A DNA stretch of 64,000 nt from Mesostigma viride (Eukaryota; Streptophyta; Mesostigmatophyceae; Mesostigmatales; Mesostigmataceae): the NCBI GenBank assembly GCA_009746045.1, contig RPFO01000027.1, positions 1,436,976-1,500,975 of the forward strand, written 5' to 3'. The translations under genes and the position numbers were made by a program. Numbering within the stretch: the stretch's first letter is position 1; every line of letters starts with the position of its first letter. Of the stretch, positions 9,601 through 64,000 are shown in pieces. The notes under the pieces are model-generated. The model made no database searches and had not been told where the DNA came from. It worked only from the letters and a program-made list of their open reading frames with translations.

Positions 9601-9718
9601 GCAAGTACTTACTTACTTACTTGTGCAATTGATCCCATCTTTAAATCGAAGGCACCCCGTGAAGCGTGGCCTTAACTAAATTGGGGTAACTCTCATTCGA
9701 CCAAATGTCTAGGCATAG

Positions 9719-19510: not shown

Positions 19511-19686
19511 CCATCTCCGTGCGCATTCAGCCCTCCCTTCATTGGGATGCCTGTCGCCCTGCTCCCCTTCAGGGCCAGCAGCTGGATTCAAGGAGTTTTC
19601 CGCCTCCGCGGGCGGGTCCCTACCTGTCGACTTATGGGTCGCGCATGTGTGCTCGCTGCTGGGATGGCCGCGAGATTAGACATGTT

Positions 19687-35100: not shown

Positions 35101-36152
35101 CTGCTCCGCCGCAAGTGTCCGGCAGGGCAGGAAGGACACGTGGGAGCCTTGGGACCGTGGGTCACCATGTTTGAGGCGGGGTCGGCGGCTAGCCGAGCAA
35201 TACGATCCGCGCCAGCGTGTCCGAGGCGCAGGTGCCACTGCATCAGGTCCACGGGGGCGGCTGATGTGGCGAGGGCATGGGGCGCCACCCCGCGGAGCAA
35301 GTAAATGCCGTCACACTCCACGAGGGGGAACGTGCGGGTCCCCAAAGTGAGGCGCAGGTGCTTAAAGTCCACATCATGGCCGGCTTTAAAGAGCTGGCTC
35401 ACCGAGAGTAGGCGGGCCTGAAGGCCTGGGACATACAAAGCTGGGCCGAGGTGCACGTCCGGGGTGCCGAGCCGGAGAAGCAGAGGGCCCCTGCCGCCCG
35501 CATGCAGATTGCCGCCCGAGCCGGTGATGCGCAGCCGGAAGGCGGGATCAAATCCATCGCCAAAGTCCGCCCGGTGAGGCGTCATGTGGTACGTGGCACC
35601 CGTGTCAACCACCCACTCCGGGGCACACCTAGCCGAGGCCGTTGCGGCCGTGTGAAGCACAGAAGGAGCGGTGGTTGAGGAACCAGCCGTCGAGTCCGAG
35701 GAGGTGCTGGGGCGGGGTGCCGAGAGACGACTGCCCGAGCGGGACGGGGAAGGCGCAAGGCCGTGCACTGGACGAAGCGAGGCCTGCCCGTGAGGCTGCA
35801 CACCGTCGCGCAGGGAAGCACCTAAAGGGTTGGCGCGCAGGGAAGCACACAAAGGGCCTCGACCCACGTGGAACGCGTACGTCGTCTCCAAGGGAGGCAG
35901 GCCTGCGTCGGTGTGATGGGCGTGCCCGGCGCCGTCACCGCGGAGGTGAGCAGGGCGCTGGGCGGGATGGGCAGTCCAGCAGGTGGCGGCGTCATGTCCA
36001 GGCTTGGCGCAGACGGAGCAGGGCGGCCCGCGACCACGCCCGACCCCTGCGCCACCACCGCGACCACCACCGCGCCCGCCGCGCCCCCCGCTGCTGCCGC
36101 CATGGCTGTGGCCGTTGCCGTGGCCATTGCCGTGGGCGCGGCCGTTGCCATG

Positions 36153-36194
<42 letters not shown>

Positions 36195-36211
36195 TCCGTT
36201 GCCGGTGCCGT

Positions 36212-36242
<31 letters not shown>

Positions 36243-36938
36243 TCCGTTGCTGCTGCCGTTGCCGTTGCCGCGGGCACCGCCATGCCGTGGGCCACGCCCC
36301 CGGCCAGGGGTATGGTATGCGTGGTTGGAGGCAGAGCCAGAATCTGCAGGGGACGGGAGGCCACCCGTCAGCAGATCTTCAACTTCCATCAGGCGCTGCC
36401 GCAGGACCGGAACAGTCTCGACCTCGTCAAGACGGAGGGAGATTAGCGCGGGCCTGTACTCGGCGCGCAGACCGCTGAGGACGCTGGCAATGAAGGCAGC
36501 GACTGGGAACGTAATGCCTGCAGCCTGTAGCTTGGCGTACAGCAGTTCCGAGCGGTTCACATACGGCTCCACAGTCTCGCGAGCAGTTTGACGAAGTTGG
36601 GCCATTTGTTTCCACAAGTCCAGACGCATGGACTTGGTGAGCTTGCCATGCTCATAGACCTGGATGAGCTTGGTGATGGCCAGACTGCCCAGGCGACGAT
36701 CCAGGGGGAGCGTCTGCATCAAGGCACGCGCAGGCCCATCGACGACGGCCAACAAGGCAACGTAAAGGAGCCGATCCAGTTGCACGTTCTGGACAACACC
36801 TGCCAGCACTCCAAGGAGGCCAGCATAAAGGGAAACAAGGCCCAAGAAATGGTCCTTAAAAGGGATCCACAGCGTCCAATCTGAGCCGGTAAAAACCTTG
36901 ACCCCACGAACATCCTTCAAAAGCTCCTTGCAAGCCAC
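32115..36938 (-). CDS. gag-pol: copia gag-pol polyprotein (about 1,607 aa)
   Basis: Domains in order. Gag helical region (YEHGKLTKSMRLDLWKQM), then a (Gly-Asn)n low-complexity linker encoded by a hexanucleotide repeat (36,100-36,300). CCHC knuckle CSVCAKPGHDAATC (about 36,005). Protease EWVVDTGATYHM (about 35,600). Integrase with H-x3-H … CPSC, catalytic HCDLLGP, ELRSDQD and PYTPEQNGVAERFWG (35,260-34,700). RT with KARFVCKGFAQ, IRQLDVRTAFLYAELEEDVY and FVHVDDLLV (about 33,050). RNase H with YSDADWANDPVDRKS and STCEAEYMAL. Stop at 32117-32115. The frame opens after TGA near 36,995 but has no ATG before the RALMQTL region. The likely N-terminus (ATG at 37239) lies in another frame, so the start is unresolved. 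Confidence 0.9.
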
Positions 36939-36978
36939 AAAGGAGGCTCGGGCGGGGCCCCCCCCGCCGTACCGCGGC

Positions 36979-37239
36979 TCAAACCACCACCGTCAACCGC
37001 CGATTCTCACCGTCGGGAGCACCGAGGGCGGCGTCCTCGTCACCACCGGGCGGGGGCAAAGCCAGGGCAGCCAGCCCAGCTGCTGCGTCAAAAAATACTT
37101 CGCCTGGGAGACCCGAATCGGTTAGAGTTACGGATGATGCAGTCAAAGCGGCCAGACCGGCAGCGTCATCGGCATCAAAATCGTTACTGCCAGCAGCGCG
37201 ACCCGCGGAAGCGACCTGGCTGCGAGTGCCGGAAGCCAT
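36979..37239 (-). CDS. Probable N-terminal gag segment of element B, offset by one base
   Basis: ATG at 37239 (MASGTRSQVASAGRAAGSND…) opens 86 codons and stops (TGA) at 36981-36979, overlapping the start of the big gag-pol frame by about 15 bases. It is one base out of phase with gag-pol. Either a +1 frameshift joins them, or a one-base indel (mutation or consensus error) splits what was one ORF. Placement between PBS and gag supports it being the real translation start. Confidence 0.5.
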   Translation of the reverse strand: MASGTRSQVASAGRAAGSNDFDADDAAGLAALTASSVTLTDSGLPGEVFFDAAAGLAALALPPPGGDEDAALGAPDGENRRLTVVV

Positions 37240-39804: not shown

Positions 39805-40990
39805 CAAAGAGACAACCAGCGCAGGCCAGAAATCGGGAGAATCCGGACCATGGTAGCTCGAGCCTGCCGTTATCTTTTCCGCGTTTTCGAGTCGTTCAGG
39901 ATGATGAAGATGAATGGTGATGGAAATGTGTATCCTTGTGCATTGAAATTATGGCTGGCTTACGTGTGGAGCGACTAGATGACCTAGACGGTGGGGCCGG
40001 AAACAGCATGCTTGATCAGGGCGTGTGTTTCTAGCCTAACTGGCCGGGAGTGTCTAGTGGTGAGCACCATTGCTGCGATCGCTCTCCCACCATTTACGAG
40101 GAAATACCCGCAAATGGAAAACCACTGAAAAGGTCTAGCTAGTCAGTCATCACGTTAGCCATGCCATGATTCCAAACGTCCAAGAACTGCACACGGTGCA
40201 AAGGCAAAAAGCCGGAGGACAGCACTTTCAAATGTGCGGCGGGAACCAAAAGCCCGCGGATGCCAGAAAACATCGTGTTGCGGCAGCGACGCGACGATGT
40301 GGACAACGAATCCAGTGCCAAGCTCGGAACGGCCGCAAAGGAGATCTGGCATCACAGGGTTCAGATGTGCGGAGATACTATGCGATCCAGCCGGTCCACG
40401 ACCTGTTTGTAGAGCTTGTGCCAAGGGGCAGCACCGAACAGATGTGGGTGACGTTGCAAAAAACATCGGACTTGACGGAGCATAATGGCTCGGTCATAGT
40501 CTTTGACCAATAAACGCTGCAAGAGTTCAACAAGAGTCGTGATGAAATCAACACGATAAGAACAAAGACGGGAAAAACGATGTAACTGAGAAAGAACAAC
40601 ACCATATTTTGCTGTGTGGGAAAGGAGACTGTGAATATCGGGGTAACGAATAAAAGGAATTTGCTGGTATTTAGGATCCTTGCGCTTATCATAGATAGCC
40701 GTACGCCAGCCCTTCTTGTTATGGGTAATGTTAAGATCGAGGTAATTGCAATGAGTATCCTCCGACGTGAGCTTTAATGTGAGGGACGCTTGCGGGTAGA
40801 TGCCAGGCAGACCAGCGGTGATATACAAATGGGTTGCGAAATCAGGGTTGTCGAAAGCGATGACATCATCAATGTATCGACATGTATGGATAAAACGCCT
40901 GATGAGAACATCATCGTTTGAGGCAATGAGATTCTCCATGAATGCAAGCTCATAAGTGTATAGATAGAGGTTTGCAATCATAGACAGAGG
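39805..40990 (-). mobile_element. Penelope-like retroelement insertion, 5'-truncated within RT (1,186 bp)
   Basis: The boundaries are exact because the other tandem unit retains the empty site. Unit 1 reads GACATCATGCCC (38,080-38,091). Unit 2 reads GACATCAT, then CAAAGAGACAACC … GACAGAGG, then TCATGCCC. A TCAT duplication flanks the insert. On the minus strand the element begins inside an RT gene and ends TGCGCTGGTTGTCTCTTTG. Shorter copies of that 3' end are scattered over the window (1.5, 1.6, 1.8, 19.35, 22.1, 22.8, 24.3, 28.0 and 28.7 kb). Confidence 0.8.
40361..40981 (-). pseudogene. Penelope-like reverse transcriptase, C-terminal part (206 aa)
   Basis: Reads MIANLYLYTYELAFMENL (RT motif after the catalytic core), HTCRYIDDVIAFDNPDF (motif C, YIDD), THCNYLDLNITHNKKGW and AIYDKRKDPKYQQIPFIRYP, then HRFSRLCSYRVDFITTLVE. 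It ends DRLDRIVSPHI. The pattern R-Y-x-DD, YLDL.I, T.-Y-K and an R..R-CS block is that of Penelope-like RTs more than LINE or LTR RTs. No GIY-YIG endonuclease follows: the frame stops at 40361 and only about 550 bp of non-coding 3' sequence remain. Motifs A and B are absent, so this copy is inactive. Confidence 0.65.
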
Positions 40991-42412: not shown

Positions 42413-43438
42413 ATATAGATGTCACGGACGGAAACTATCAAGACTCACTATCTTAGTTAGTGCCTCACTTTTCTGTTTTCTGGCACACGACGGGCCGACT
42501 ATCGATATTCGCCGCGCCACGTCCCCTGTTGAGCTTTGCTCGGATTGTTGAGCCTTCGCTGAGCTTTGCTCGGATATGTTTGGTGACATGTTACCTATCT
42601 TTCGTGACATTTGCCCGAGTGTGGTACCTACCCCTACTCGAGAGTTGCGTTTTGTTTTGTTTTTTTCCAAGAAGATATCTATGACAAGACGTGGATCATG
42701 TCAAGGGCTCCGCCCCTACAAAAAAAAGAGGGATTTTTACATTTCTGTCAAGTTAGTGCCCGGAAATTACAGATATTTTTCCATATTTACAGAACGGTGT
42801 TTTATATTACTGACAGATCCGTACGTAAGCTCTGGCATAAGCCTTACCTGAGTCGTCTTGCCGCAGTGGATCTAGCCTGGAAGTTAGTAAACAAGCCATG
42901 GCTACGTAAGCACACTAACGAACTTACGGGGACTCCATGACTCATGCGTACGTGCGGCGCTCACATGCATGGGCACCAGTTTACCTACTTTGCATTTGGG
43001 GGATGATGTCTTGAAAAACTTAGTTGCAAAAAAAGGCAATGGCAGACGGGATTGAGAAGCCCTTTGTAATGTCGGGTCATGTACTCATGATTCATGATTT
43101 GGGACTGATGCGCTGAGGCGATAAATTACGATAAAGCAATTGATTGACAATGCAGATCAATGCTCATGGGCCAGGCTTTCGATGAAGTGCGCGTCTTGCA
43201 AGCTTCGTCACCTTTGAATATTTGTGGCCGGGCAGCCGCCTATGAACATTGCATGCTCTGTTATCGTTGTTCCGTTGGTGTAAATGGGTAAGTGGCTGAA
43301 CGCCGCAATCGAAGATAGCCGATGGGCAATGCCTAGTGAATTAGTCAGGTTGTTTCAACGAGATTTCGGCGTGACAGCGTGTTATATTGCTGTTACAAGG
43401 ATCTGCTTCCTGGTGGCGTTAACATGTGAGTTTTCGGA
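42413..43438. other. Interval without recognised genes
   Basis: No convincing ORF. The segment 42,720-42,840 (GGGATTTTTACATTTCTGTC … ACAGATCCGTACGTAAGC) is a diverged inverted relative of 46,565-46,675, so the satellite-rich zone between lies inside an inverted repeat. Confidence 0.5.
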
Positions 43439-44460
43439 GAGTGTGTGCATGTGTGTGCATGTGTGTGCATGTGTGTGCATGTGTGCGCATGTGTGCGCAT
43501 GTGTGCGCATGTGTGCGCATGTGTGCGCATGTGTGTGCATGTGTGTGCATGTGTGTGCATGTGTGTGCATGTGTGTGCATGTGTGTGCATGTGTGTGCAT
43601 GTGTGTGCATGTGTGTGCATGTGTGTGCATGTGTGTGCATGCTGTGCCTCGTGTGTGTGCGTGTGTGTGCGTGTGTGTGCATGTGTGTGCATGTGTGTGC
43701 ATGTGTGTGCATGTGTGTGCATGTGTGTGCATGTGTGTGCATGTGTGTGCATGTGTGTGCATGTGTGTGCATGTGTGTGCATGTGTGCGCGTGTGTGTGC
43801 ATGCTGTGCCTCGTGTGTGTGCATGTGTGTGCATGTGTGTGCATGTGTGTGCATGTGTGTGCATGTGTGTGCATGTGTGTGCGTGTGTGTGCATGTGTGT
43901 GCATGTGTGCGCATGTGTGTGCATGTGTGTGCATGTGTGTGCATGTGTGTGCATGTGTGTGCATGTGTGTGCATGTGTGTGCATGTGTGTGCATGTGTGT
44001 GCATGTGTGTGCATGTGTGTGCATGTGTGTGCATGTGTGTGCATGTGTGTGCATGTGTGTGCATGTGTGTGCATGTGTGTGCATGTGTGTGCATGTGTGT
44101 GCATGTGTGTGCATGTGTGTGCATGTGTGTGCATGTGTGTGCATGTGTGTGCATGTGTGTGCATGTGTGTGCATGTGTGTGCATGTGTGTGCATGTGTGT
44201 GCATGTGTGTGCATGTGTGTGCACGTGTGTGCATGTGTGTGCATGTGTGTGCATGTGTGTGCATGTGTGTGCATGTGTGTGCATGTGTGTGCATGTGTGT
44301 GCATGTGTGTGCATGTGTGTGCATGTGTGTGCATGTGTGCGCGTGTGTGTGCTTGTGTGTGTGTGCGTGCATGTGTGTGCGTGTGTGTGCTTGTGTGTGC
44401 TTGTGTGTGCATGCAGTGTGTGCGTGTGTGTGCGTGCATGTGTGTGTGCCGGTGTGTGCA
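43439..44460. repeat. GTGTGTGCAT decamer satellite, array 1 (about 1.02 kb)
   Basis: About 100 units of the 10-mer GTGTGTGCAT. Five consecutive GTGTGCGCAT variants occur near 43,480-43,525. Two irregular blocks (GCTGTGCCTCGTGTGTGTGC, about 43,640 and 43,802) suggest a local duplication of a larger unit. The unit alternates purine and pyrimidine at every step. Long ORFs in five frames are artefacts. Confidence 0.97.
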
Positions 44461-45306
44461 TGTGACAGTGGCATGTGTGGCCTTGTGGCTTTCATGCATC
44501 TCACCTTTGTTCTAAGCATGTCAAGCAGTCCTGCCATGATTGCCATACGTTAGAGAGGTGTTCCCCCTCAGGTTGGATGGCAAACTTGGAGTTGACATCC
44601 TTGTTGTGTCTTACTCTTTCATGCAATGCAGCAGTTCCAGTTCCTGCCTCCACACTCCTGCGTTTGGGAGTCATTGTCAAGTGGGAAATACAGAGACTTG
44701 TGACCACACGGTATAAGTCGTGCATGTGCATGTGTGTGCATGTGTGTGCATGTGTGTGCATGTGTGTGCATGTGTGTGCATGTGTGTGCATGTGTGTGCA
44801 TGTGTGTGCATGTGTGTGCATGTGTGTGCATGTGTGTGCATGTGTGTGCATGTGTGTGCATGTGTGTGCATGTGTGTGCATGTGTGTGCATGTGTGTGCA
44901 TGTGTGTGCATGTGTGTGCATGTGTGCGCGTGTGTGTGCTTGTGTGTGTGTGCGTGCATGTGTGTGCGTGTGTGTGCTTGTGTGTGCTTGTGTGTGCATG
45001 CAGTGTGTGCGTGTGTGTGCGTGCATGTGTGTGTGCCGGTGTGTGCATGTGACAGTGGCATGTGTGGCCTTGTGGCTTTCATGCATCTCACCTTTGTTCT
45101 AAGCATGTCAAGCAGTCCTGCCATGATTGCCATACGTTAGAGAGGTGTTCCCCCTCAGGTTGGATGGCAAACTTGGAGTTGACATCCTTGTTGTGTCTTA
45201 CTCTTTCATGCAATGCAGCAGTTCCAGTTCCTGCCTCCACACTCCTGCGTTTGGGAGTCATTGTCAAGTGGGAAATACAGAGACTTGTGACCACACGGTA
45301 TAAGTC
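44133..45306. repeat. Tandem duplication with 587-bp period (array tail + 258 bp unique)
   Basis: The end of decamer array 1 and the unique segment 44,461-44,719 (GTGACAGTGGCATGTGTGGC … ACACGGTATAAGTCG) recur 587 bp later (array 2 at 44,720-45,047, unique part 45,048-45,306) with no difference that I can see. Confidence 0.9.
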
Positions 45307-47653: not shown

Positions 47654-49473
47654 TGTCACGTCCGTGATCATTTACGTCCGTGCACTCAAGAAGTTACGCG
47701 ATTGCCGTAATCGGAATCGTTACGTCCGACGTTTGGTTGGTTCCGATTCAGTATAGGCCGCAGGCTTTCACAGGTCGGACAAATATAAATGATATTTGGC
47801 CGTATTTGCGCATTTGATTTATAAATGTTGCATATTTAGTCCACTAAATGTATCCAACGGCGAAAAAGTTTTCACCAAAATATTTAGATGTATCCAACGG
47901 CGAAAAAGTTTTCACCAAAATATTTAGATGTATCCAACGACGAAAAAGTTTTCACCAAAATATTTAGATGTATCCAACGACGAAAAAGTTTTCACCAAAA
48001 CATTTAGATGTATCCAACGGCGAAACCGGCTTTGAATATTTAAATGAATCTAAATGAATATTTAAATACTCGTGCCGCCAGGGCCTTTAACTTTAACATC
48101 TGAAGTTTCAGTTTCAGTCTGAACTGGCCGCGTCTGCGTCCTGCCTCGCGCGCCATTAGGAAACTGAGCGGGAAATGCATGTGCCTTAAACTTAAACTTC
48201 ACAGGTCGGACAAATATAAATGATATTTGGCCGTATTTGCGCATTTGATTTATAAATGTTGCATATTTAGTCCACTAAATGTATCCAACGGCGAAAAAGT
48301 TTTCACCAAAATATTTAGATGTATCCAACGGCGAAAAAGTTTTCACCAAAATATTTAGATGTATCCAACGACGAAAAAGTTTTCACCAAAATATTTAGAT
48401 GTATCCAACGGCGAAAAAGTTTTCACCAAAATATTTAGATGTATCCAACGGCGAAAAAGTTTTCACCAAAACATCTAAATTCATCCAACGGCGACCGGTA
48501 AGCAGCCAAAAGTATTTGAATCATATTTTATTTATATTTGTCCGACCTGTGCAGGCTTTGTTCCTTGGGCCGGTGTGGAGCGCCGCGCCGGAAAGGCCTG
48601 AATTTCTAGAGTGACAGTCTTAGGTGACCTGACTTAGGTTCGGGCGCAAGACTTTGGGGCGCAAAGCCTTGGTGGCTTGCGCAATATTCCGGTGCGTGAC
48701 ATTTGGCAGTTACGAATCTTTTGTATTGTCCAGACGGAATGATGTTCAGTCCATCGGACAAAGCTAGATACGCAGATCGTAGTGTGCGGTGTGCTGGCTC
48801 GCACGTGGCTGTCGAACAGACTTGCTCTGCATTTTGCTGGCAGTCTAACTGCACGTCAGGCGGCTTGCTGGCAAATGCGACAGCGCATGGATGCCGGGAT
48901 TTTTGGAGGTATTTAGGAGCACAGCAGCGGCCATGGTGGTCGTTGTTCGCTCGTTACTCTCCCTCACAACTTGGTGTTGTCGTCAAGGGGTTTAATAGTG
49001 GAACAATCCGGAGCAGCCCCCGAGAGTGGTTGCAATGAGTAATTGTCATGAGATTGGTTGACGGAAGTGATAACTGTTTGGTTTCGTCAAGATGATGTGT
49101 GTATTGTGGGCGAGACTCGGGAAGGAACCCGGTCGTCGTTGGCCAGTGAGCCATAGCTGGGGTAAGCGGGATAGGTAGACAGGATAGGGGGCGCTAAAGG
49201 ACACTGCCAGCCGTAAGCCAAGCGGAGCAGTGTGGCGTCACCCGAGGCCTGCTAGGTTATCAAGAACCGCTTAGCCTTATTTGGACAGTGACGCACAAGT
49301 ACGACATTATACGACTAGACAACACTTGTATTCTTGTCGATGTCTTTTGAAATTAAATGTGAATGGTTTGGTTGCTTTCCAAATATATAAAGCATCATGG
49401 TTTTATTCTACACCTGGCTGGCTACGGAATTGCCTGTCATGAGGTCGGCGGCCAAGTATGTCCGTGACCTGCA
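47654..49473 (+). repeat. 1,029-bp direct repeat, copy 1 (LTR-like TG…CA), split by a MITE
   Basis: With the MITE and its duplicated 8 bp removed, this copy is 1,029 bp and matches 49,929-50,957. It starts TGTCACGTCCGTGATC and ends TGACCTGCA. AAATATATAAAGC (about 49,380) about 90 bp before the end resembles a TATA box. A 111-codon frame (48,703-49,038; MAVTNLLYCPDGMMFSPSDK…) is kept in both copies but has no recognised domain. Could be LTRs of a very short element (internal part 455 bp, 49,474-49,928, no coding motif) or a tandem duplication cut by element C. Confidence 0.65.
47769..48551. mobile_element. hAT-like MITE with 8-bp TSD (783 bp)
   Basis: TIRs CACAGGTCGGACAAATAT… at both ends (22 bp identical, inverted), flanked by an 8-bp TSD CAGGCTTT (47761-47768 and 48552-48559). 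The empty site GCAGGCTTTGTTCC is intact in the second direct repeat at about 50,036. 8-bp TSDs and CA…TG termini are hallmarks of hAT transposons. No transposase. The interior holds two arrays of a 40-bp unit (TATCCAACGGCGAAAAAG …; 47,848-48,022 and 48,276-48,490). A second internal copy of the left terminus at 48,200 implies a MITE fused with or inserted into another. Confidence 0.85.
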
Positions 49474-50958: not shown

Positions 50959-51651
50959 AGTTAACGCCAAGCGCATTGGCGTGATCCTGATTCGGCATAT
51001 CTCTGCGATTCCAGCGGCACCGGAACGAGTTCATTCCGACGAGTATCAAGAAAGTTATGGCGTTCCGACTTCCCGGTCGCGCGCGAGCGCGAGCCGGCTG
51101 TTCTTCTAAGTCGGACGTGAATATTTGCCGACGACATATGGGGTCGACAGTAATTCCTGGGCTGACAGGAATTAGGTGCTGTACCTACGACGGTATTGGA
51201 TTAATACGTCGTACGCAGGAAATAGGAACCTTAACCTGTGGTCTGTTGGTACCGCAGGCTTAGTCCTGGGCTTCTAGGTGCAGATGCAATAGTCACTGTG
51301 GACTGTGCTCTGTGGTCACTGTGCCTGTATGGCAGACCTACTGTATAGGAGCTGGGCGCTGTACAGGTAGTGAATACTGTACCGGGGTGTTATTACTGAG
51401 CAGGCCTCCTAGGCTGCTCAGGACTAGCAAGCACAGTGCACAAGTATATAAACAAAGGCCAGTGCCAAATGGGCATCTTTGCTAGCCCGCCTCGCGTGTT
51501 GTGCCTTGACTTGGCAAGCTCGTGTGCAAGCCTCAAGTGTTGAGCGCTGTAAACATTATCCGATTTAACAAAGCTCCGTTTCCAACCATATTCACACATT
51601 GCTGCATTGCAACCATATCCTTCACATTGCGTGTGCGAAGAAAGCTTAACT
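50959..51651 (+). repeat. 5' LTR of element C (693 bp, AGTTAA…TTAACT ends)
   Basis: Begins AGTTAACGCCAAGCGC and ends GAAAGCTTAACT. Its inverted counterpart is 56839-57535 (LTR of element D, about 98% identical by eye). TATATAA at 51445-51451 is a likely promoter. The termini are not TG…CA, yet both are fixed by flanking homology: the 1,029-bp repeat on the left, and the interrupted RT/RNase H codons at the D insertion. Confidence 0.85.
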
Positions 51652-51744
51652 CAAATTACAACCAGTCTCAGCGGAACGGCCAGGAGGGTCGTTGCCGGTT
51701 GCGGTGTGCAGCGTTTGCGACGAGAGGAGCTCGTCTGGTGGTGA

Positions 51745-52665
51745 ATGGTGCAGGAGGAACAGCGGCAGCAGGATTTCCGGTTTCGGCAGTCTGCTGGGGG
51801 TTCGATTTCTCCTGAATTACGCCGTGTCGTTCGGGATCTATCTTTGTTGCTTGCAGATCGTCCGCCTGTAAATCGCAGCTTCGTGCAATTCGTCGACGAC
51901 CAGGTCGAAGATTGGGAGCGAATTCTGCGACACGTACAAACCATCGTCATTCCGGAGCACCGGAGCATCGACGACCTTGAGCAGGAGCTTCACGGGTTGG
52001 TCGGCATCCAGACGGTGATTACTGCAGTAGCAGAGCGAGTGCGGACGGAGTTGGCAGCAAGGCGAGGCGAGGTTGCGGAGGCAGCTGGCGCAGGGCGACA
52101 CGAGTTTGTGCCGACAGTAGCGGGCGCGGGAGTACCACGTGCTTTCGCAGGCGGCATCGGCGGCGAGGGTGTTGCAGCGGGTCCAGTTAGGCGTGAACGA
52201 CGCGGAGCGGAGCATCACAGTCGGCTTGCAGAGGTCAGGGCGACAGCGGAAGCCATCGCCGGAGGACCGCGCGCAACAAGAGTCGGCAGGTTTCCAGAGC
52301 GAGTAAGAGTTCCTTTTCAGGAACTGCCCCCGCCCCTTCGCGTTCGTGTGACGCGTTGGGAGGAGTTTGCACCTCTTAGGTACGAGAGTGACCTTGAGGT
52401 AGGAGCAGGGGGTGTCGCTGGGCTAGGCGACGAGACACTTGGCGACCACGAGGTGCCAACGTACAATCCGCGAGGGACCAACGACGGGTTGTCACCTGTC
52501 TACTTTACCAACGGTGACGATTCAGTCATCGCGGGCCGACAGCGGGTCGACGACGGCGCAGCAGGTAGCAGGGTACCAGAGCTGATTGTGGTGAGCGACA
52601 GCGACGACGACAGCGACAAGGAGAACCAGGACGCGCCTGGGGCCAGCCGTGGTGGTCTTGCCTGA
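51745..52665 (+). CDS. Extra ORF upstream of gag in element C (306 aa, unknown)
   Basis: ATG at 51745, stop TGA at 52663-52665, located between the 5' LTR and gag. Residues 1-110 are helical with several Arg/Glu patches (DDQVEDWERILRHVQTIVI, LVGIQTVITAVAERVRTEL). The middle is Ala/Gly/Arg-rich, and the C-terminus is acidic (VVSDSDDDSDKENQD). No homology recognised. It might be an accessory protein or a duplicated/displaced matrix-like Gag domain. Its decayed counterpart in element D lies within 62.5-63.4 kb. Confidence 0.65.
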   Translation: MVQEEQRQQDFRFRQSAGGSISPELRRVVRDLSLLLADRPPVNRSFVQFVDDQVEDWERILRHVQTIVIPEHRSIDDLEQELHGLVGIQTVITAVAERVRTELAARRGEVAEAAGAGRHEFVPTVAGAGVPRAFAGGIGGEGVAAGPVRRERRGAEHHSRLAEVRATAEAIAGGPRATRVGRFPERVRVPFQELPPPLRVRVTRWEEFAPLRYESDLEVGAGGVAGLGDETLGDHEVPTYNPRGTNDGLSPVYFTNGDDSVIAGRQRVDDGAAGSRVPELIVVSDSDDDSDKENQDAPGASRGGLA

Positions 52666-52766
52666 GTGGTAACACTTGGCACTTTCTTTTTTGTTCAGTA
52701 GCTTATATTGCTTTAATTGCTGCTTAGCCACTTGGCTGGCTGTAGCAGATCTGAACAGAGGCCATC

Positions 52767-53953
52767 ATGGAGGATGGAGCTATCAACCAACCAGCGGGCT
52801 TTATGGACTTCGGGCGGCGCGGCGCTGGGCTGGATGGACGAGATGGACGCGATGGACGCGGTGGACGCGATGGACGCGGGGGCGGCCAGGCGCTGGGAGA
52901 CCAGGCTGAGGTGCCAGATAATCAGAGCCAAGGATCGCAGGGCGGGCAGCACGCGCCAGCCGCAGATCAAGCGGCGCCCAAGCGACCAACTGTTGCTGAG
53001 GGGTACGCGGTGCTAGGCCAGTTTCAGTCCATCAAGGACAATTGGCAGCCCCGGGATGCTGAGAGGATGTTAGAGGACATGAACTTGTACACTGAGATAT
53101 ACAACGGTGACAGCTTCGCATCCTGGCGTCTAGTGCCTACATGCGGCAGTCGGCGAGGCGGCTGTTCAAGTTTGTTCGGGAGCGACACGCGGCGGGGGAC
53201 ACCTGGGCGGCGTTTATGACGCGACTCAGGGTGTTCCTGAGTGACAAGAGGACCATAGATGGGTCCCACCTGAAGCAAGAATACCTGGACTACAAGCCCA
53301 TCAAGGGACAACTAGTGGTCCACGCCTTTGAAGACTTCGTCAAGCTGAGGGAGGACGCCATGGCCAAGGGCTTCTTCGTCGCAGATCGGATGGCCATGGG
53401 CGACTTTCTCAAGTCGCTGCAACTGGATCCGGTCACCATGGATAATGTGACCATCCACATGCGACAGGTCCATGGCTGGGCAGCCATGACGGATCAGTTG
53501 TATGAGTGTTTCAGCGGCAAGTACGTGGGGGGTAAGCGCCCTCGTCAGAATGATGAGGAGGCCACTGAACCCACGGTTAAGTCCATGAGGGGATCGGGCC
53601 ACGGGGGCCCAGCGTCCTCGAGAGGGCCTGAGACCTCTTCAAGGGGTCGAGGAAGGTCCAGGAGGGGGCGTGACAGAAGGGCTGGACGGGGGACCCCGCC
53701 GAAGTCGGGACATCCACAGTCCCAGTTTGACTTCAAGAGGGTGGGTGGTCCTCCCAAGGCTGGGCCCAGCAGTGGGACCTCACGGGACATCAGTCAGGTG
53801 GAATGTTATTTCTGCCAGGGGAAGGGTCACTTCAGGAATGAGTGTCCCTCGTACCTGAGGCAGGAAGGTCAGAGCAAGCCAGCTCAGGGTGGCAGCAAGG
53901 ACAAGGCTGGTCCATCCCAGGACAAGGGCAAGGGCAAGGCTGCTGATCATTGA
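52767..53953 (+). CDS. gag: gag of element C (one frame change), zinc knuckle, ends at readthrough TGA
   Basis: ATG at 52767 (MEDGAINQPAGFMDFGRRG). A short (Asp-Gly-Arg) repeat (52,830-52,895) and the segment QFQSIKDNWQPRDAERMLED follow. The frame changes near 53,130 and continues QSARRLFKFVRERHAAGDTW … FVKLREDAMAKGFF, a UBN2/Gag-like helical region. A basic Arg/Gly/Ser tract and the CCHC knuckle CYFCQGKGHFRNEC (about 53,806-53,847) come next. It stops at TGA 53951-53953. The same frame is open immediately after the stop into pol. Confidence 0.8.
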
Positions 53954-53956
53954 TAT
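53948..53956 (+). promoter_or_regulatory. Candidate stop-codon readthrough site between gag and pol
   Basis: CAT TGA TAT. The frame upstream (gag, codons at 53141-53953) and downstream (pol, open from 53954 to 56956) are the same. No ATG lies near the start of pol, so translation through TGA is the simplest way to express it. Confidence 0.6.
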
Positions 53957-56838
53957 GAGCCTGCACACATCCCTGAACCCTGGAGGGTGCCCCCAGGGGT
54001 GTGTAATGAAGCTGCTAGTGACAGCAGTGAGGGGCAGCCCCATGCTCTAGTGAAAGAGCCTATTGGACACGATGGGGCAAGCTTGGTTACCACAGAGAGT
54101 ATGCCAGCTGTAGCTGCAGTGGTTACTCGCCAACGTGCCCGCCATGGCGGTGCTGAGCCTGAGGTAGGACCTGGTGATGTGGACCCAGGTGGATCTCAGA
54201 AGCATTCTGACCGTGCAGGACTGGCACAGGATGGTCAGGATGAGGATAGGGCTGGAGACAGTCTGACAGGCACGACCCTGGTGCCTCCTGTACATAAGGG
54301 ATCTGTACATACCTTGAGTGCTAATAATGACAATAAAAGATTTTCTCTCTTGTATGACATTGCCTCAAGGTTGCATACCATGTTTGGCCATGCAGCTCAG
54401 TCTTTGCAAGTTGCTAGACGGCTGGGAGGAAGTGAGTTGTACTCCATCTGCCAACAGGTTGCTCAAGCTTGCAAGTGCAGGCTAGTTGCTAGAAAGCCCA
54501 AGCAGTCTCATGCCAGGACTCCTATTTTGCAGCCAGGCCATGTGCAGGTAGATATTCAGAGAATCAGGGGTTTGAAGCTGCTGGTGGCAGTGGACAGATA
54601 TACCAAGTACAAGACCCTAGAGATCCTGCCTGACATGGAGAAGCCTACATTGATTGCTGCTCTGAAGTTGACAAGGAGCAGGTACCCTGGGTTGGAGTTG
54701 TTGCAGTGTGACATTCAGTTTGAGTGCTGTGAGAACCTACCAGAGTTTCCAGAGTTGCTGATTACACCCAGGGAGAGCCACGGCCAGCAAGGGGTGGTGG
54801 AGAGAGCCATCCAAGAGATAAAGACTGTGCTGCTGGTGGAGAGGATTCCAAGGACGTCATCTGCCATTGTGACATCTGCATGGCTACGTTCTGTGGAGGA
54901 CAGGCTGAACCTGAGGACTCCCATGTTCTTTGGTGACATTGCCATCAATCCTCTTATGCTGCATACCAGGATGCTGCCAGCTGATGCTGAGCAGGCATGG
55001 AAGGAGAAGCTAGAGGCCAAGTTCCTCAAGCTGAGGCAGAAAGACAAGGGCTGGAGTGTCCTAGAACCTAACGTTGGACAACAGGTTGTTGTGTGGAAGG
55101 AACCAAGCTTTCCAGGGAAACGTGGCAGCTGGCATGATGGGGTGGTGACCCGAGTAGAAGCCGCTGGCCATAAGTGCTGGGTGGCCATTGATGGCTCCCA
55201 AGCAGTGCACCGTCTGTCCTGGTCAAAGATCCGTCCCCGGGGAGGTAATCAAGGAGACCTCTTCCAGGTGCCCGCTGGTGTACAAGGCGGGGGTGACGTG
55301 GAGCTTCCTGATCAGGGTGCTACAGCTGTATCGAGCCCTCAGGGTGACCCTGGCCCGGCCCCTGGGGTACCTTCACATACGGTGGTTGGGCAAGCAGGCG
55401 GACAGGCTGCACCTCCGGAACGGCCCGACACCAGGCCTAGGGGTGTGCGTCTATCAGATATTGTACAGGCTTTGCAAAGAGCCAAGAAGGAGCCTAAGGT
55501 GTCCAAGCTTGTCCAGTTGGATGAACCTGAGGTAGCTGCCATGGAGATAGATACCAATGCGCAGGTTTCTGTCATGGGACCTCAGCATACAGGAGAACTG
55601 CTGGTCGGAGAACCAAGTTGCCCCTGGGTGTCTGATTTCAGTGGTAGGACGCATCTAAGGGTGTTGGGAGAGGTTACTGCCCCTGTCATGGGTGTGGATG
55701 TGACCTTCCTTGTCCTAGAGGACTATGATGGCCCTGTGATTTTGGGTCAGAATTTTCTGGGCAATCCTGGAATTTCTATCAGAGCTACAGCTCTGAGAAG
55801 AGATGGCTGGGGGATGATTCCCCTAGAAAATTTCAGGACAACATTTCCAGTCAGGTGCAGGGCCAAGCCGGTCAAGGGTGTAAAATGGGATGAAGGGGAG
55901 GTGCCCCCAGCGGCCAGTTTGGTTATTCCAGCTGTGTTGCACCCCAGCAGTATTGGCATAACTCACAGGAGCCTTGCTGCACACTCTCCTTTGACATATG
56001 ACCAGCTGGTCCAAGAGATGAGCTCGCCTACTTTGTTTGAGGCTTGGAAGCTCGCCTTCTCCAAGGCATTGGAGGAGTGGCTGCAGTTTGAGTGTGCTGC
56101 ACCAACAGACAGACGTCCCCCAGCATCAAGGAAGCTTGCTTTGAGATTTGTGCTGAAGAGGAAGGTTGTGGATGAGGTATCAGTGCCCCATGTCAGGCCT
56201 GTCCTGAATGAGTATCACGGCACGGGGAGTCTGCCAGGAGAGGAGCTATACACGCCAGGGATGCTACACGACACATGGAGAATTTTGCTATGTCTCTACG
56301 TGGGGTTGCTGAACAGGGGAGCAGCTATGTCATCAGTGCTGCTGGACTTCAAGAGGGCATTTTTAAAATCTGATCCAGAAGTGGCCAGGAGGGTGTGGAA
56401 GCAGGATGAGCCTTACTGTGTTGAGGTGCCTGCCATCTGGAAGCTGGAGCTGCATCAACAATTCCTGGTTATTCTGAAGGGCCTGGAAGGACTCAGGTCG
56501 AGCCCAATCATCTGGAGGCTCACGCTGCAGGAAGCTCTGATCAGTGAGTGTGGCTTGAGAGTGTCTTCAGTTGATCCCTGTTTGCTGCTGGCCCAATGGG
56601 AGGGTCTGCCAGTGTATGCTAGTTTGCATGGAGATGATCTGCATTTGCTAGCCCCGACCTGGCTGAAGAAGTATATTCCTGTCATCAGTGGCAAGTTTTC
56701 ACTGGGCAAGGAGCTGTGGCAGGAGCCCAACAAGCCTGTAGTGTTCTGTGGAATGCAGGCTACCCTGTTCAGGAGGGACGGGGAGTGGAGTATCAGGCTT
56801 CAGGCTGGAGGAGATTATAAACAGACCATTGTGAAGGC
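53954..56838 (+). CDS. pol: pol of element C: integrase, protease-like domain, RT (truncated)
   Basis: Integrase: LHTMFGHA … CQQVAQACKC (zinc-binding), core VQVDIQRIRGLKLLVAVDRY, then LLQCDIQFEC and ESHGQQGVVERAIQEIK (D, D, E with a short 29-residue D-E spacing), 54,340-55,200. Protease-like: MEIDTNAQVSVMGPQ (DTNA at 55,550-55,561) and PVILGQNFLGNPG (about 55,730-55,770), the two signatures of a retropepsin. RT: LALRFVLKRKVV, SSVLLDFKRAFLKSD (motif A), ILKGLEGLRSSPIIWRLTLQ and YASLHGDDLHLL (motif C, HGDD instead of YVDD), 56,130-56,800. The frame then runs into the LTR of element D and ends at 56956, the last 39 codons being LTR-derived. Confidence 0.85.
56834..56838. other. Insertion site of element D in element C
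   Basis: …GTGAAGGC|AGTTAAGC. The uninterrupted codons (GTGAAGGCCTTGCC) are present in element D itself at about 58,691-58,704. AAGGC is the expected 5-bp target duplicate; its partner would be right of the window. Confidence 0.75.
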
Positions 56839-57535
56839 AGTTAAGCTTCTTCGCACACGCAATGTGAAGGATATGGTTGCAATGCAGCAATGTGTGAATA
56901 TGGTTGGAAACGGAGCTTTGTTAAATCGGATAATGTTTACAGCGCTCAACACTTGAGGCTTGCACACGAGCTTGCCAAGTCAAGGCACAACACGTGAGGC
57001 GGGCTCGCAAGAGATGCCCATTTGGCACTGGCCTATTGTTTATATACTTGTGCACTGTGCTTGCTAGTCCTGAGCAGCCTAGGAGGCCTGCTCAGTAATA
57101 ACACTCCCGGTACAGTATTCACTACCTGTACAGCGCCCAGCTCCTATACAGTAGGTCTGCCATACAGGCACAGTGACCACAGAGTACAGTCACCACAGTG
57201 ATTATTGCATCTGCACCTAGAAGTCCAGGACTAAGCCTGCGGTACCAACAGACCACAGGTTAAGGTTCCTATTTCCTGCGTACGACGTATTAATCCAATA
57301 CCGTCGTAGGTACAGCACCTAATTCCTGTCAGCCCAGGAATTACTGTCGACCCCATATGTCGTCGGCAAATATTCACGTCCGACTTAGAAGAACAGCCGG
57401 CTCGCGCTCGCGCGCGACCGGGAAGTCGGAACGCCATAACTTTCTTGATACTCGTCGGAATGAACTCGTTCCGGTGCCGCTGGAATCGCAGAGATATGCC
57501 GAATCAGGATCACGCCAATGCGCTTGGCGTTAACT
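56839..57535 (-). repeat. 3' LTR of element D (697 bp)
   Basis: Reverse complement of the 5' LTR of element C with a few substitutions and small indels; the minus strand begins AGTTAACGCC at 57535 and ends GCTTAACT at 56839. A polypurine tract AAGAAAAGAAAGGATTGG directly precedes it on the minus strand (57,553-57,536). Confidence 0.88.
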
Positions 57536-57991: not shown

Positions 57992-59518
57992 TTAGACAGA
58001 TAGACCGACTTGACAGTCAGCATTCATGAGCTTCCTCAGTACATTGTACTGGGCTGGGGCCTTGTGTGGCAGCTTTGTCAATGCATCAGCAGGGTTCTCC
58101 TCGCCAGGGATATGCTTCAAGTCAACCAAACTGGCCAACTCCTTCAGCAACAAATAATCCAGGTCCCGGCTCCTGGCCAGCTGCTTGTGAACAAACTGGA
58201 CCATACCCATGCTGTCTGTTAGCAACAACGTCTCCATCTGCAAGGTCCAAGGGGTAACTGAAGCCAGCTCCAGCATTAACTCCTTTATGTACAGGCTGGA
58301 CTGGATCCCCTCACATATGGCCCTGCATTCTGCCACATCTGAACTGATACAGACCCTCTTCTGCAGTCTGCTGTACCAGCTGAACAAACTTGCCCTGCTC
58401 TGATAAAAAGCAAACAGAGCAGCAGATCTCCCCCTGACCTTGGTAACCTGGCGAGCATCCATGGAACTGTCAACAAAGATCTCCAAGGTGATAGGCTGGG
58501 CAAAGTCAATCCCAGACAAGATCAGATCAGGGGTACTCTCCACCAACCGGGCTATGACTCGAGGCTTCTCATCCTCAAGCACCTCATCAGGCATTCTGCT
58601 ATGGACCATCAAAGACGGACCACAGATGCTGGCAAACCAGGCCCACATGCCTCTCAACTCAGGTCCTGCAGCCTGGGTGATCTTCTCTGGCAAGGCCTTC
58701 ACAATGGTCTGTTTATAATCTCCTCCAGCCTGAAGCCTGATACTCCACTCCCCGTCCCTCCTGAACAGGGTAGCCTGCATTCCACAGAACACTACAGGCT
58801 TGTTGGGCTCCTGCCACAGCTCCTTGCCCAGTGAAAACTTGCCACTGATGACAGGAATATACTTCTTCAGCCAGGTCGTGGGGGCTAGCAAATGCAGATC
58901 ATCTCCATGCAAACTAGCATACACTGGCAGACCCTCCCATTGGGCCAGCAGCAAACAGGGATCAACTGAAGACACTCTCAAGCCACACTCACTGATCAGA
59001 GCTTCCTGCAGCGTGAGCCTCCAGATGATTGGGCTCGACCTGAGTCCTTCCAGGCCCTTCAGAATAACCAGGAATTGTTGATGCAGCTCCAGCTTCCAGA
59101 TGGCAGGCACCTCAACACAGTAAGGCTCATCCTGCTTCCACACCCTCCTGGCCACTTCTGGATCAGATTTTAAAAATGCCCTCTTGAAGTCCAGCAGCAC
59201 TGATGACATAGCTGCTCCCCTGTTCAGCAACCCCACGTAGAGACATAGCAAAATTCTCCATGTGTCGTGTAGCATCCCTGGCGTGTATAGCTCCTCTCCT
59301 GGCAGACTCCCCGTGCCGTGATACTCATTCAGGACAGGCCTGACATGGGGCACTGATACCTCATCCACAACCTTCCTCTTCAGCACAAATCTCAAAGCAA
59401 GCTTCCTTGATGCTGGGGGACGTCTGTCTGTTGGTGCAGCACACTCAAACTGCAGCCACTCCTCCAATGCCTTGGAGAAGGCGAGCTTCCAAGCCTCAAA
59501 CAAAGTAGGCGAGCTCAT
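57992..59518 (-). CDS. pol: RT-RNase H region of element D pol (508 aa)
   Basis: Starts with MSSPTLFEAWKLAFSKALEE and contains the complete RT (SSVLLDFKRAFLKS, YASLHGDDLHLLAPTTW). Then comes the RNase H missing from copy C: ITLEIFVDSSMDARQ, RVCISSDVAECRAICEGIQS and LTDSMGMVQFVHKQL. Near the end is KHIPGEENPADALTK, the copia-type RNase H C-terminal signature. Stop at 57994-57992. A one-base deletion near 59,525 (GCTGTCC versus GCTGGTCC in C) separates it from the upstream ORF. Confidence 0.85.
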   Translation of the reverse strand: MSSPTLFEAWKLAFSKALEEWLQFECAAPTDRRPPASRKLALRFVLKRKVVDEVSVPHVRPVLNEYHGTGSLPGEELYTPGMLHDTWRILLCLYVGLLNRGAAMSSVLLDFKRAFLKSDPEVARRVWKQDEPYCVEVPAIWKLELHQQFLVILKGLEGLRSSPIIWRLTLQEALISECGLRVSSVDPCLLLAQWEGLPVYASLHGDDLHLLAPTTWLKKYIPVISGKFSLGKELWQEPNKPVVFCGMQATLFRRDGEWSIRLQAGGDYKQTIVKALPEKITQAAGPELRGMWAWFASICGPSLMVHSRMPDEVLEDEKPRVIARLVESTPDLILSGIDFAQPITLEIFVDSSMDARQVTKVRGRSAALFAFYQSRASLFSWYSRLQKRVCISSDVAECRAICEGIQSSLYIKELMLELASVTPWTLQMETLLLTDSMGMVQFVHKQLARSRDLDYLLLKELASLVDLKHIPGEENPADALTKLPHKAPAQYNVLRKLMNADCQVGLSV

Positions 59519-60237
59519 CTCTTGGACAGCTGGTCATATGTCAAAGGAGAGTGTGCAGCAAGGCTCCTGTGAGTTATGCCAATACTGCTGGGGTGCAACA
59601 CAGCTGGAATAACCAAACTGGCCGCTGGGGGCACCTCCCCTTCATCCCATTTTACACCCTTGACCGGCTTGGCCCTGCACCTGACTGGAAATGTTGTCCT
59701 GAAATTTTCTAGGGGAATCATCCCCCAGCCATCTCTTCTCAGAGCTGTAGCTCTGATAGAAATTCCAGGATTGCCCAGAAAATTCTGACCCAAAATCACA
59801 GGGCCATCATAGTCCTCTAGGACAAGGAAGGTCACATCCACACCCATGACAGGGGCATTAACCTCTCCCAACACCCTTAGATGCGTCCTACCACTGAAAT
59901 CAGACACCCAGGGGCAACTTGGTTCTCCGACCAGCAGTTCTCCTGTATGCTGAGGTCCCATGACAGAAACCTGCGCATTGGTATCTATCTCCATGGCAGC
60001 TACCTCAGGTTCATCCAACTGGACAAGCTTGGACACCTTAGGCTCCTTCTTGGCTCTTTGCAAAGCCTGTACAATATCTGATAGACGCACACCCCTAGGC
60101 CTGGTGTCGGGCCGTTCCGGAGGTGCAGCCTGTCCGCCTGCTTGCCCAATCACCGTATGTGAAGGTACCCCAGGGGCCGAGGCCGAGGCCAGGGTCACCT
60201 GACGGCTGAACAGTGTAGCACCCTGATCAGAGCTCAC
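59515..60237 (-). CDS. pol: Protease-like region of element D pol (240 aa, frameshifted from RT)
   Basis: Same sequence as element C residues around MEIDTNAQVSVMGPQ and PVILGQNFLGNPG, confirming that the protease-like domain directly precedes RT in two independent copies. It ends QLSKR because of the one-base deletion before the RT ORF. Upstream, homology to C breaks down at about 60,190-60,240. Confidence 0.8.
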   Translation of the reverse strand: MSSDQGATLFSRQVTLASASAPGVPSHTVIGQAGGQAAPPERPDTRPRGVRLSDIVQALQRAKKEPKVSKLVQLDEPEVAAMEIDTNAQVSVMGPQHTGELLVGEPSCPWVSDFSGRTHLRVLGEVNAPVMGVDVTFLVLEDYDGPVILGQNFLGNPGISIRATALRRDGWGMIPLENFRTTFPVRCRAKPVKGVKWDEGEVPPAASLVIPAVLHPSSIGITHRSLAAHSPLTYDQLSKR

Positions 60238-63200
60238 TCACCCCCCCTTGTACACAGCGGGCACCTGGAAGAGTCTCCTTGATTACCTCCGCGGGACGCA
60301 TCTGACCAGGAACGTACGGTGCACTGCTGACCATCAATGGCCCGAGCACTATAAATAAAGGCAGCGGTTTCTACTCGGTTTCCACCCCTCATGCAGCTGC
60401 ACGTTTCCTGGAAAGCTGGCGTTTCCTTCAACACACACTTTAACCGTTAGGTTAGGAACTCCAGACCCTTTCTTTTGCCTTGAGCTTGGAGACTTGGCTT
60501 ACTCTCTCTCCTGTCAGCATCAGCTGGCAAGCATCCTGGTAGCACATAAGGATGATGCAATGTCCAGGACATGGGAGTCAGTTCAGCCTGCCTCCACAGA
60601 AGTAGCATTGCCAAGATGTCACAATGGCAGAGACGTCCTGGAATCCTCTAACGCAGCAGTCTGTTATTCTGGATGCTCTCTCACACCCTTGCTGCGTGGC
60701 TCTCCGGGTGTAATCAGCAACTCTGGAAACTCTGGTAGTTCTCACAGCACTCAAATGAAGCACTGCAAACCCAAAGGGTCCGCTCCTTTGTCAACTAGAG
60801 CAGCAATCAATGAGGCTTCTTCAGGCAGGATCTAGGGTCTTGTACTGGTATATGCACTGCCACCAGCAGCTTTCAAACCTGATTCTGAATATCTACACTG
60901 CACCATGCCTGGCTGCAAAAGGAGTCGTGGCTGAGACTGTTGGCTAAGCAACCGAGCCGCACTTGGCAGCTTGAGCACCTTTGCAGGAGGAGTAACTCAT
61001 TCCCAGCCGTCTAGCACTGCAAAGACGAGCTGATGGCCAAACATGGTTTGCAAACTGAGGCAATGTCATACAAGAGAAATCTTATGTACATTACACTCCA
61101 AGGTAGTAACAGATCTTTATTTACAGGAAGGCACCAGGGTGTGCCTGTCAGACTGTCTTTCCAGCCTCCTATCTGACCATCCTGTGCAGTCTGCACGGTC
61201 GAGTCGAGACCAACCTGGGGTATCACGTCCTACCTCAGGCTCAGCAGCAGCGCACGTTGGCGAGAACTGAGCTTACATTGGCATACTCTCTGTGGTAACA
61301 AGCTGCCATCTTCAAAGGCTTTTCATTAAGCAGGGGTGCCTCACTGCTGTCACAGCAGCTTCATTACACACGGGGGCACTCCAGGGTTAGGGATGTGTGG
61401 CAGGTCATATTAAGATAGACCTTGCCTGCCCTTGTCCTGAGGAAGCTTGTCCTCGCTGCCACCTGCAGCGGCCTTTGACCTTCTGCTCAGGACGAGGGAC
61501 ACTCATCCTGAAGTGACCCTCCATCTATATAAAACATTCCACCTGACTGTTATGCTCTATGTCCCAGTGGGCCCAAGCCGGGAGGACCACCCATTTGAAG
61601 TAAACGGATTGGATGCCCGACTGGGTCCGTCCAGCCGTACGCCCTCTATCTTTCCTCGAACCTCTTTGAAAGGGTCTTCAGGCCTCGAGGATCTGCCGCC
61701 CGTGGCCGATCCTCATGACTAACGTGGTCGTTGCCTCTCATCATCTGTATGTAGGGTCTTTTACCCACGTATCCTGTATATCTACTCATAAACGATCCTC
61801 ATGGCTGCCACAGGGAACCTTCGTTATGTTACTATTATCAATGTGACCGCATCCAGTGCCAGCGGACTGAGAAAGTCGCCCATGGCCATCCGATCTGCGA
61901 GAAGAAGCTGCCAGTGCGTCCTCTCAGCTGATGAATCTCTCTATATCTTTGGACCAACTAGTTTCCCTTGATGGCTTGTATCCAGTATTTGCTTAGTGGA
62001 CCCATCTTGGTCTGTATACCAGGAGCACCGATCGTGTTAAATAAGCCGCCAGGTGTCCCCCGGCGTGGGTTTCGCCCCGAACAAATGAACAGCGCCTGCG
62101 ACTCGTATGTAGCATAGACTGTAGACGAATGTTGTCACGTGTATATCTAGTGTTTACAAGTCATGCTTAACATCCTCTAAGTTACCGCTGTATCAATTGT
62201 CCTTGATTTATCTATATACTCTTAGCACCGCTTACCTCAGCAAAGTGGTGCTGTGAGGCGCTTGAATTGGTTGCTGGCGCGTGGCTTGCCGCCCTGCGAT
62301 CCGCTTTATCTCTATCTCTCTATCTCTCCCTAGGCTGGCGCCCGCGTCATCGCGCACACGCGGTCAGCCATCTCTATCTATCTCTCAGGCTCTGCGCGCC
62401 CGGAAGTTCCAAAAGGGGCCCGCTGTGGTGATAGCTCCCACCTTCAGATTTGGCCTGTTCAAGATTCTACAGCCAGCCAAGTTGGCTAAGCAGCAATTAA
62501 ACAATATAGTATGAACAAAAAAAGATGAAGGCAAGTGTACGACTAGGCAGACACACGGTGCCAGGCGGCGTCCTGCGTTTTTGTCGCTGTCGTCGCTCGT
62601 TGTCATCATATCCTTTCTGGTACGTACCTGTCCGCTCTCGACCAGCTTGGCCTCTATACTAATCTCACCGTGTTACAGTAGTCATACAAGTCGTCTGGAT
62701 TACTGCCTCGTGCGCAAAGTGATGTGTGCTAGCCAGGACACCCCGCGCTACTCAAGGTACGATGCTTACCCAAGAGGTGCAAACTCCTCCCAACGCGTCA
62801 AACGAATCTTCATAGGGGCGGGTTTTAGCTCGAAAGGAACTCTTATCGCTTGGATTAACTGCGGATGCGTCGCGCCGTTTTCCTTCGATGGCCGTCGTCT
62901 GTCGCGGATCTGAAGCCCCTGTTGATGCTCCGCTGCGCGTTTAGCCTAACGGTCCGTGCAAACCCTATGGTCGCATGCGTGGCGCGAAAGCACGTTCTTT
63001 TCCTGCGCCCGTACTTTCGCCACAAACTGTGTCGCGCGCCAGCTGCCTCCGCAATCTCTCTTGCTTGTGCAATCGTCTACTCCGCTTGCTACTGTATAAT
63101 TCCACTCCTGGATGCGGACCAAGCCCGTGAGTTCTGCTAGGTCGTGATCTCGTGTCGAATGACGATGGTTGTACTTTTGTCGCTATATTCCTTTTAATTT

Positions 63201-63429
63201 CGTATCCTGCGTCGGACGAATGCAGAAGCCCTTATACAGGCGGCATGTGGTAAGCACATAAGTGATAGATCCCGAACGGAACAGCGAATCAATATATATG
63301 AACCTGCAGCTATGCCGAAACGGAAATCTGCTTGCCGCTGTTGCTGACCATAACAGACGACCTCTCGTAACCGGCACCGCAAACGGGCAATCTATCTCTT
63401 CTCTCTGTCTCTATATCGGTTGTATATAT
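60238..63429 (-). pseudogene. Corrupted integrase, gag and leader of element D
   Basis: Blocks in the reverse order of element C can be followed: integrase-region fragments (60,280-61,080), the gag/pol junction (about 61,270-61,430), the zinc-knuckle region and gag (61,440-62,480), and the upstream ORF and leader (62,480-63,420). They carry frequent deletions and substitutions, so no frame longer than about 110 codons survives. No other gene is seen here. Confidence 0.6.
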
Positions 63430-64000
63430 AGCTTTCTTATAACGGCATTGAAAGATATGGTTGCAATGCAAGATTTGTGATATGGTTTGGGTATATATCT
63501 AGCTTGTTAAAATCGATAATGTTATACCCAGCACACGAGGCTTGTACACGGCGCGGTGTGCAACATAGGTGCCACAACATCGTGAAGGGGGTGGGCTCGC
63601 AAAGATGCCATTTGCACTGCTATTGCTATGGACCTGTGCTGGTAGCGTGGTGATGCAGCTTGGAGGTTCCCTTGTTTGTGCTCAGTAATAACACCTGGAA
63701 TATCGCTACGTCACAGCGGATCAGTTCCTATACAGTAGTCGTTGGCCATACAGACAGTTGACCACAGAGACACAACCACAGTGATTATTGCATTGACCTA
63801 GAAGTCCAAGCGAGCAAGCCTTGCGTACGCAACGAGACCAAGGTTAAGGTCTATCTGCGGACACGATTAATCCAAATACGCGAGTAACAATCACTAGATT
63901 CTGTCCAGGCCGAGAATACTGTGACCCATTTCGTCGGCAATATTCACGTCACTTAGAAGAACAGCGGCGTCGCGCGCGACCGCGACGGAAGTCGGAAGTC
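63430..64000 (-). repeat. Corrupted 5' LTR of element D (partial)
   Basis: Follows 56,865-57,440 in order (GATATGGTTGCAATGCA, CACGAGGCTTG, GCTCAGTAATAACAC, CAGTGATTATTGCAT, AGAAGTCCA, ACTTAGAAGAACAGC) with many short deletions. It reaches the window end about 100 bp before its outer terminus. Confidence 0.7.

Follow-up and report, generated by a model that had tools for sequence, protein, structure and literature searches.

A copia-like LTR retrotransposon of Mesostigma viride with a retropepsin-like domain between integrase and reverse transcriptase

A stretch of 64,000 nucleotides of the Mesostigma viride genome (hereafter the window) contains an LTR retroelement in which the motifs of the integrase (IN) precede those of a retropepsin-like protease domain (PR), which are followed by a reverse transcriptase (RT) and, in other copies, by RNase H (RH). 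We read this element as a Ty1/copia-like LTR retrotransposon with a pol order that is new to the literature searched. The order IN-PR-RT-RH is real and goes beyond chance, because the frame is open in many copies and the order is kept in relatives at 59% and 38% identity. With reasonable confidence, the element is regarded as an LTR retrotransposon, probably autonomous and recently active, that combines an RT-RNase H of Ty1/copia type with a rearranged pol, organised as gag-(in-frame UGA)-IN-PR-RT-RH.

Pol order in the window

The copy in which the order was noticed, copy C, lies on the forward strand and begins with a 5' LTR (AGTTAACG...GCTTAACT, 50959..51651) that shares 98% identity with the LTR of D, a second copy in inverted orientation, and aligns with both LTRs of the intact copy L021. 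The interval between the LTR and gag holds an extra open frame of 306 aa (51745..52665, forward strand), pieces of which were matched in D and which gave zero Pfam matches at E up to 5; this frame is broken in L021 and L022. The gag of copy C (52755..53953, forward strand) is split over two frames, and unsplit gag ORFs are present in L021 and L026; it carries a CCHC zinc knuckle (CYFCQGKGHFRNEC, 53804-53845; zf-CCHC, E=9e-05) and ends in UGA (53951-53953). Next comes a single open frame at 53954-56956 of the forward strand, which contains all the pol motifs of this copy. The integrase (54329..55243) shows HxxxxH...CKC, the D of VQVDI, the D of CDIQF, the E of GVVERA and a C-terminal domain, the longer motifs being VQVDIQRIRG, CDIQFEC and HGQQGVVERA. 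It is followed by the retropepsin-like domain (55511..55873), with the D of DTNA at 55550 and VILGQNFL about 180 bp further on (ILGQNFL at 55739-55759), and by a copia-type reverse transcriptase with the motif LHGDD (56054..56838). The motif order given in the earlier note is thus borne out, with all motifs in one frame. Since the 3' LTR of D (56839..57535, minus strand, located by alignment to C) cuts copy C at 56838, this copy is without the end of RT and RNase H, which were read from D and other copies.

Three frames of the forward copy and three of the minus copy were scanned for protease motifs. A D[ST][GN][AST]-like motif with a downstream ILGxxF was found once per copy, at 55550 in the forward copy and at 59985 in the minus copy, and the first motif without ILGxxF occurred in four further places in the forward copy. 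A loose D[ST]x[AST] pattern is met once in each gag ORF of L021 and L026 (DTWA and DTWT, within RHAAGDTW) and was not considered an active site; it is absent from the upstream ORF of L021. The absence of a protease motif between the gag zinc knuckle and the integrase, noted earlier, agrees with the scan of copies C and D and with the gag ORFs of L021 and L026.

Copy D lies on the minus strand, where 63997..58695 aligns to 51063..56838 of C. Its PR ORF (59515..60237) and RT-RNase H ORF (57992..59533) lie in different frames, one base being missing, and the succession of PR, RT and RNase H previously proposed for this copy could be read directly from them. Over PR and RT, copies C and D are 99.6-100% identical. 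Homology to the element extends through IN and gag up to the window edge, and tblastn located IN upstream of the PR of D through weak matches (E 5e-05 and 1e-06). This gag-IN half (60240..63997) is degraded: in 250-base bins it is 80-98% identical to C, with about 10-20% of bases missing in most bins. Together with the DNA past the window to about 67700 (L027), the region from 60240 to 64000 matches the element at about 72-82%, with very many small gaps. Either a low-quality consensus or real decay may be responsible for this state.

Other retroelements also occur in the window. A canonical copia element (32115-36992, minus strand) consists of one 1625-aa open frame in which Pol_BBD, rve and RVT_2 follow each other as usual, and a gypsy element in pieces (10673-16848, forward strand) has gag, PR, RT-RH and IN. 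Two open frames on the minus strand, one with an RT carrying YIDDV (40361-40990) and one LINE-like (8749-9612), look by eye like pieces of further retroelements. Long tandem repeats are located at 19680-20290, 43420-44550 and 48236-48534 (IHPS-type and CVHVCA-type coding repeats and a 40-base unit).

Copies, relatives and classification of the element

The Mesostigma genome (440 Mb, 2243 contigs) contains at least 150 matches to the PR piece: of 4520 first-look candidates, 150 were scored, and all of these matched. Among these 150 copies, a hand count gave 97 with a frame that stays open for 1196 or 1198 aa. Nineteen copies (L002-L020, the short L001 being omitted) were fetched, and this sample favours good copies because the 20 loci are those at the top of the match list. 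Eight landmarks stand in the order IN, PR, RT, RH in 17 of the 19 copies; 14 of them are free of stops throughout the 3351 fetched bases and deviate from L002 by 0 to 13 sites, and three have stops before IN. The remaining two are L016, without the two RH landmarks, and L003, with PR landmarks only. The LTRs are about 698 bp long with the termini AGTTAAC...GTTAACT, and those of L021 (557-1255 and 7949-8647) differ at 5 of 699 sites. All five copies fetched with both ends are flanked by 5-bp target duplications, as read by eye (CTTAC, CTGAG, GCGAC, GCAGG, and ATACC). The LTRs and target duplications are the mark of real integration, and the many open, near-identical copies suggest that the element was recently active and that it is probably autonomous. 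According to the available part of the report on the NIES-296 assembly of M. viride, LTR elements make up 27.9% of it (PMC6947507).

Two loci have a more complex structure. At L022 (1-528, 8563-8745), the PR region of one copy of the element harbours a second copy, which is flanked by a 5-bp duplication. At C224:857489-869123, four PR matches follow one another on one strand, three of them spaced by 3759 bases and with 760-aa open frames; the arrangement could reflect either tandem repetition of part of the element or an artefact of assembly.

The same pol order was found in P0001, an outside relative of 1214 aa encoded by an ENA contig of 6224 bases and 59% identical over 969 columns. Its Pfam matches, all below the curated cut-offs, follow in the order rve (214-265), gag-asp_proteas (557-628) and RVT_2 (751-923). 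The profile check called for by the earlier note thus succeeded in part, giving the expected order at subthreshold level in P0001 and nothing but a subthreshold Agenet match for the pol of the window itself.

A second family in the Mesostigma genome was recognised through P0002, a EukProt protein of M. viride that begins at PR and is 38% identical to P0001. It matched the genome with 100% identity (rounded) in all 65 scored places, from 8108 candidates, and by hand count 45 of these contain a 1344-aa open frame. The pol of its copy L042 comprises a linker, IN, PR (DVDTKAEVSV...LIGQPFL), RT (LHGDD) and RH, these domains being named by likeness to the first family because Pfam gave zero matches for the second-family pol at E up to 5. 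The gag of L042 has 427 codons and three zinc-knuckle matches in Pfam. Aligned over 310 columns, the integrases of the two families share 31% identity (E=7e-40), with VER at the third catalytic position in the first family and VDR in the second. Since a family with so divergent an integrase has the same order, the arrangement IN-PR-RT-RH appears to be older than the split of the two families. The search for full-length copies that had been recommended thus yielded open copies of two families, as well as P0001, in which PR always follows IN.

Further relatives include P0003, nearly the same as the RT-RH of D, P0004 and P0005, both from Mesostigma, and P0006, a transcript of Prorocentrum lima. 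P0005 and P0006 are 86% identical over 277 aa, a likeness that could reflect either contamination or horizontal transfer. Relatives were not found in the viral contig and genome contig collections searched.

The rve match of the integrase has an E-value of 0.057 for the window and 0.019 for P0001, both below the cut-off, with identities of 59% and 58% between this domain and P0001. The RT of the intact copy L021 is 75% identical to that of P0001. The RVT_2 profile matched P0004 at 1.6e-12 and P0005 and P0006 at about 2e-4, with no match in P0003. Six sequences with HGDD matched two copia elements in blastp with E-values from 4e-06 to 2e-16, and gave nothing below E 0.47 against the gypsy RT of the window. 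In an eight-row tree, they fell together on one side of a branch (100/100; 75/95 with the very long gypsy row added); this tree has only two canonical copia rows, too few for the position within copia to be read from it. The copia-like RT of the earlier note is thus upheld by RVT_2 in relatives and by blastp, and by sequence comparison the RT-RH part of the element is classified as copia-type, not gypsy. A comparison of IN and PR with six copia and gypsy pieces by blastp and hmmsearch returned nothing significant, the best value being 0.097 for the PR of P0002 against a copia protease piece.

The domain between integrase and reverse transcriptase

The two PR motifs stand at about the usual retropepsin spacing, and the D, T and A of DTxA, VSV, and the GQ and FL of GQxFL are invariant in the three aligned PR sequences. 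The active-site glycine of DTG/DSG, near-invariant among retropepsins, is replaced by N in the first family and P0001 (DTNA) and by K in the second family (DTKA), so that neither site matches the retropepsin pattern D[ST]G[AST]. The gag-asp_proteas profile, which is of gypsy/retroviral type, matched the PR piece of P0001 at E=0.0039, below the curated cut-off, and that of the window at E=0.27, over the last part of the model only; the gypsy control matched it at 5.8e-09. Pol_BBD, the copia protease profile, matched both copia controls; scans of pol and gag with E limits of 5 or 10 did not detect it. NCBIfam gave no match to the PR alignment, and a PDB sequence search returned no protease, only five weak beta-glycosidase matches (best 0.072), two profiles giving none. 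The AlphaFold2 models of the DTNA domain, from three sequences each, had pLDDT values of 40 and 37. With an E-value limit of 10, a Foldseek search with the first model returned 79 matches; none of them reached 0.001, and the 50 that were listed included no retropepsin. Because of the DTN/DTK site and the uninformative structure predictions, the assignment of PR is based on the motifs and the degree to which they are conserved, on a single weak match to a profile, and on the fact that no other candidate was found. The rearranged copia-related lineage proposed earlier is thus retained as regards the order, which recurs in open copies of two families and an outside relative; the retropepsin fold of the DTNA segment agrees with the conserved motif pair and the weak gag-asp_proteas match of P0001 and was not confirmed by AlphaFold2 or Foldseek.

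The loss of the glycine in all three aligned sequences and the weak profile matches would be explained if the domain had the retropepsin fold but were catalytically dead or altered, acting as a structural or dimerisation module, with processing left to a host protease or hardly taking place. We consider this unlikely, since the domain is 63% identical to P0001, compared to 44% in the linker ahead of it, the D, T, A, VSV and GQxFL residues are retained, and no further protease motif was found in the element; known LTR retroelements require a protease. It is quite improbable that the domain is not a retropepsin at all, DTNA and ILGQNFL being chance look-alikes in another beta-rich domain. The lack of a confident structure, the empty Foldseek result, and the absence of a Pfam match for the PR piece of P0002 speak for this explanation, as does an uninformative hhalign comparison of PR with single gypsy and copia proteases, in which 23 of 200 shuffles reached the score of the gypsy protease. 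However, the gag-asp_proteas match of P0001 spans positions 14-91 of the 92 in the model, and both motifs are retained at 38% identity.

The layout of the window, where C and D form an inverted repeat, D interrupts C and the upstream half of D is badly degraded, raises the question of whether the order arose by accident at this one place, through a nested or inverted insertion or through misassembly. This explanation is scarcely credible and was rejected, given one open frame in many copies over many contigs and the same order both in the second family and in P0001, which comes from another source. A retropepsin-like protease between IN and RT remains our preferred reading: the domain likely has the retropepsin fold and is probably proteolytically active despite the DTN/DTK site. 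Its descent from a gypsy-type protease may be taken as a lead only.

Proposed expression and comparison with known retroelements

In L021, L022 and L026, a single stop codon separates gag from an adjoining, in-frame pol; the final stretch of gag occupies a different frame in L023-L025. All seven junctions read, those of L021-L026 and of copy C, have UGA as the stop, with CTT as the next three bases in five of them and TAT in two. Readthrough of UGA would be the simplest route to Gag-Pol in the first family. A hairpin 11 bases past UGA is no evidence for it, because 17 of 200 shuffles fold equally well. In L042 of the second family (1746-6997), gag and pol overlap by about 66 bases in different frames, so the expression of its gag and pol must differ.

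One could propose that translation mostly ends at UGA after Gag, with occasional readthrough giving Gag-IN-PR-RT-RH. The PR-like domain would dimerise in the particle, excise itself from between IN and RT and free Gag; RT would then copy the RNA, and IN would insert the DNA with a 5-bp stagger. As to its origin, the ancestral copia protease ahead of IN may have been lost, and another retropepsin could have taken a position between IN and RT in the common ancestor of the two families. Only tentatively do we suggest that the element represents a separate deep copia-type branch, which lost the copia protease, acquired another retropepsin between IN and RT, runs with a glycine-less DTN/DTK site and has many open copies today; its pol order and its retropepsin active site would then both be new.

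With Ty1/copia elements (Pseudoviridae), the element shares the copia-type RT-RNase H, an IN ahead of RT, the CCHC gag, the LTRs and the 5-bp target duplications. Unlike them, it has PR after IN, whereas the canonical order, also seen in the two control elements, is PR-IN-RT-RH; it likewise differs in the lack of a Pol_BBD match, in LTR ends of AG...CT and in HGDD in RT. The LTRs of the second family seem to end in AGTT...AACT, as judged from one copy. An element with the order IN-PR-RT-RH was not found in the literature searched, a partial set with few subscription journals and without Repbase.

Gmr1 elements retain PR in the first position. As far as described in the available parts of two papers, this clade of Ty3/gypsy resembles our element in having a rearranged pol with IN ahead of RT (PMC8220671, PMC2774666); Gmr1 is a gypsy lineage, whereas the RT of our element is copia-type. 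LTR ends other than TG...CA are shared with the Troyka LTR retrotransposons, which, in the accessible text of their description, differ in having the gypsy order, 3-bp duplications and CG...CG LTR ends (PMC12440569). Pol order is a dividing mark among LTR-retroelement families, and Gmr1 was the sole rearranged lineage met in the literature searched. The order IN-PR-RT-RH in a copia-like lineage with many open copies, possibly along with a swap of protease, would demonstrate that the protease is replaceable and movable. The element also lends itself as a natural test case for two questions: whether the sequence of polyprotein cleavage is governed by where PR lies, and whether retropepsins need the glycine of DTG.
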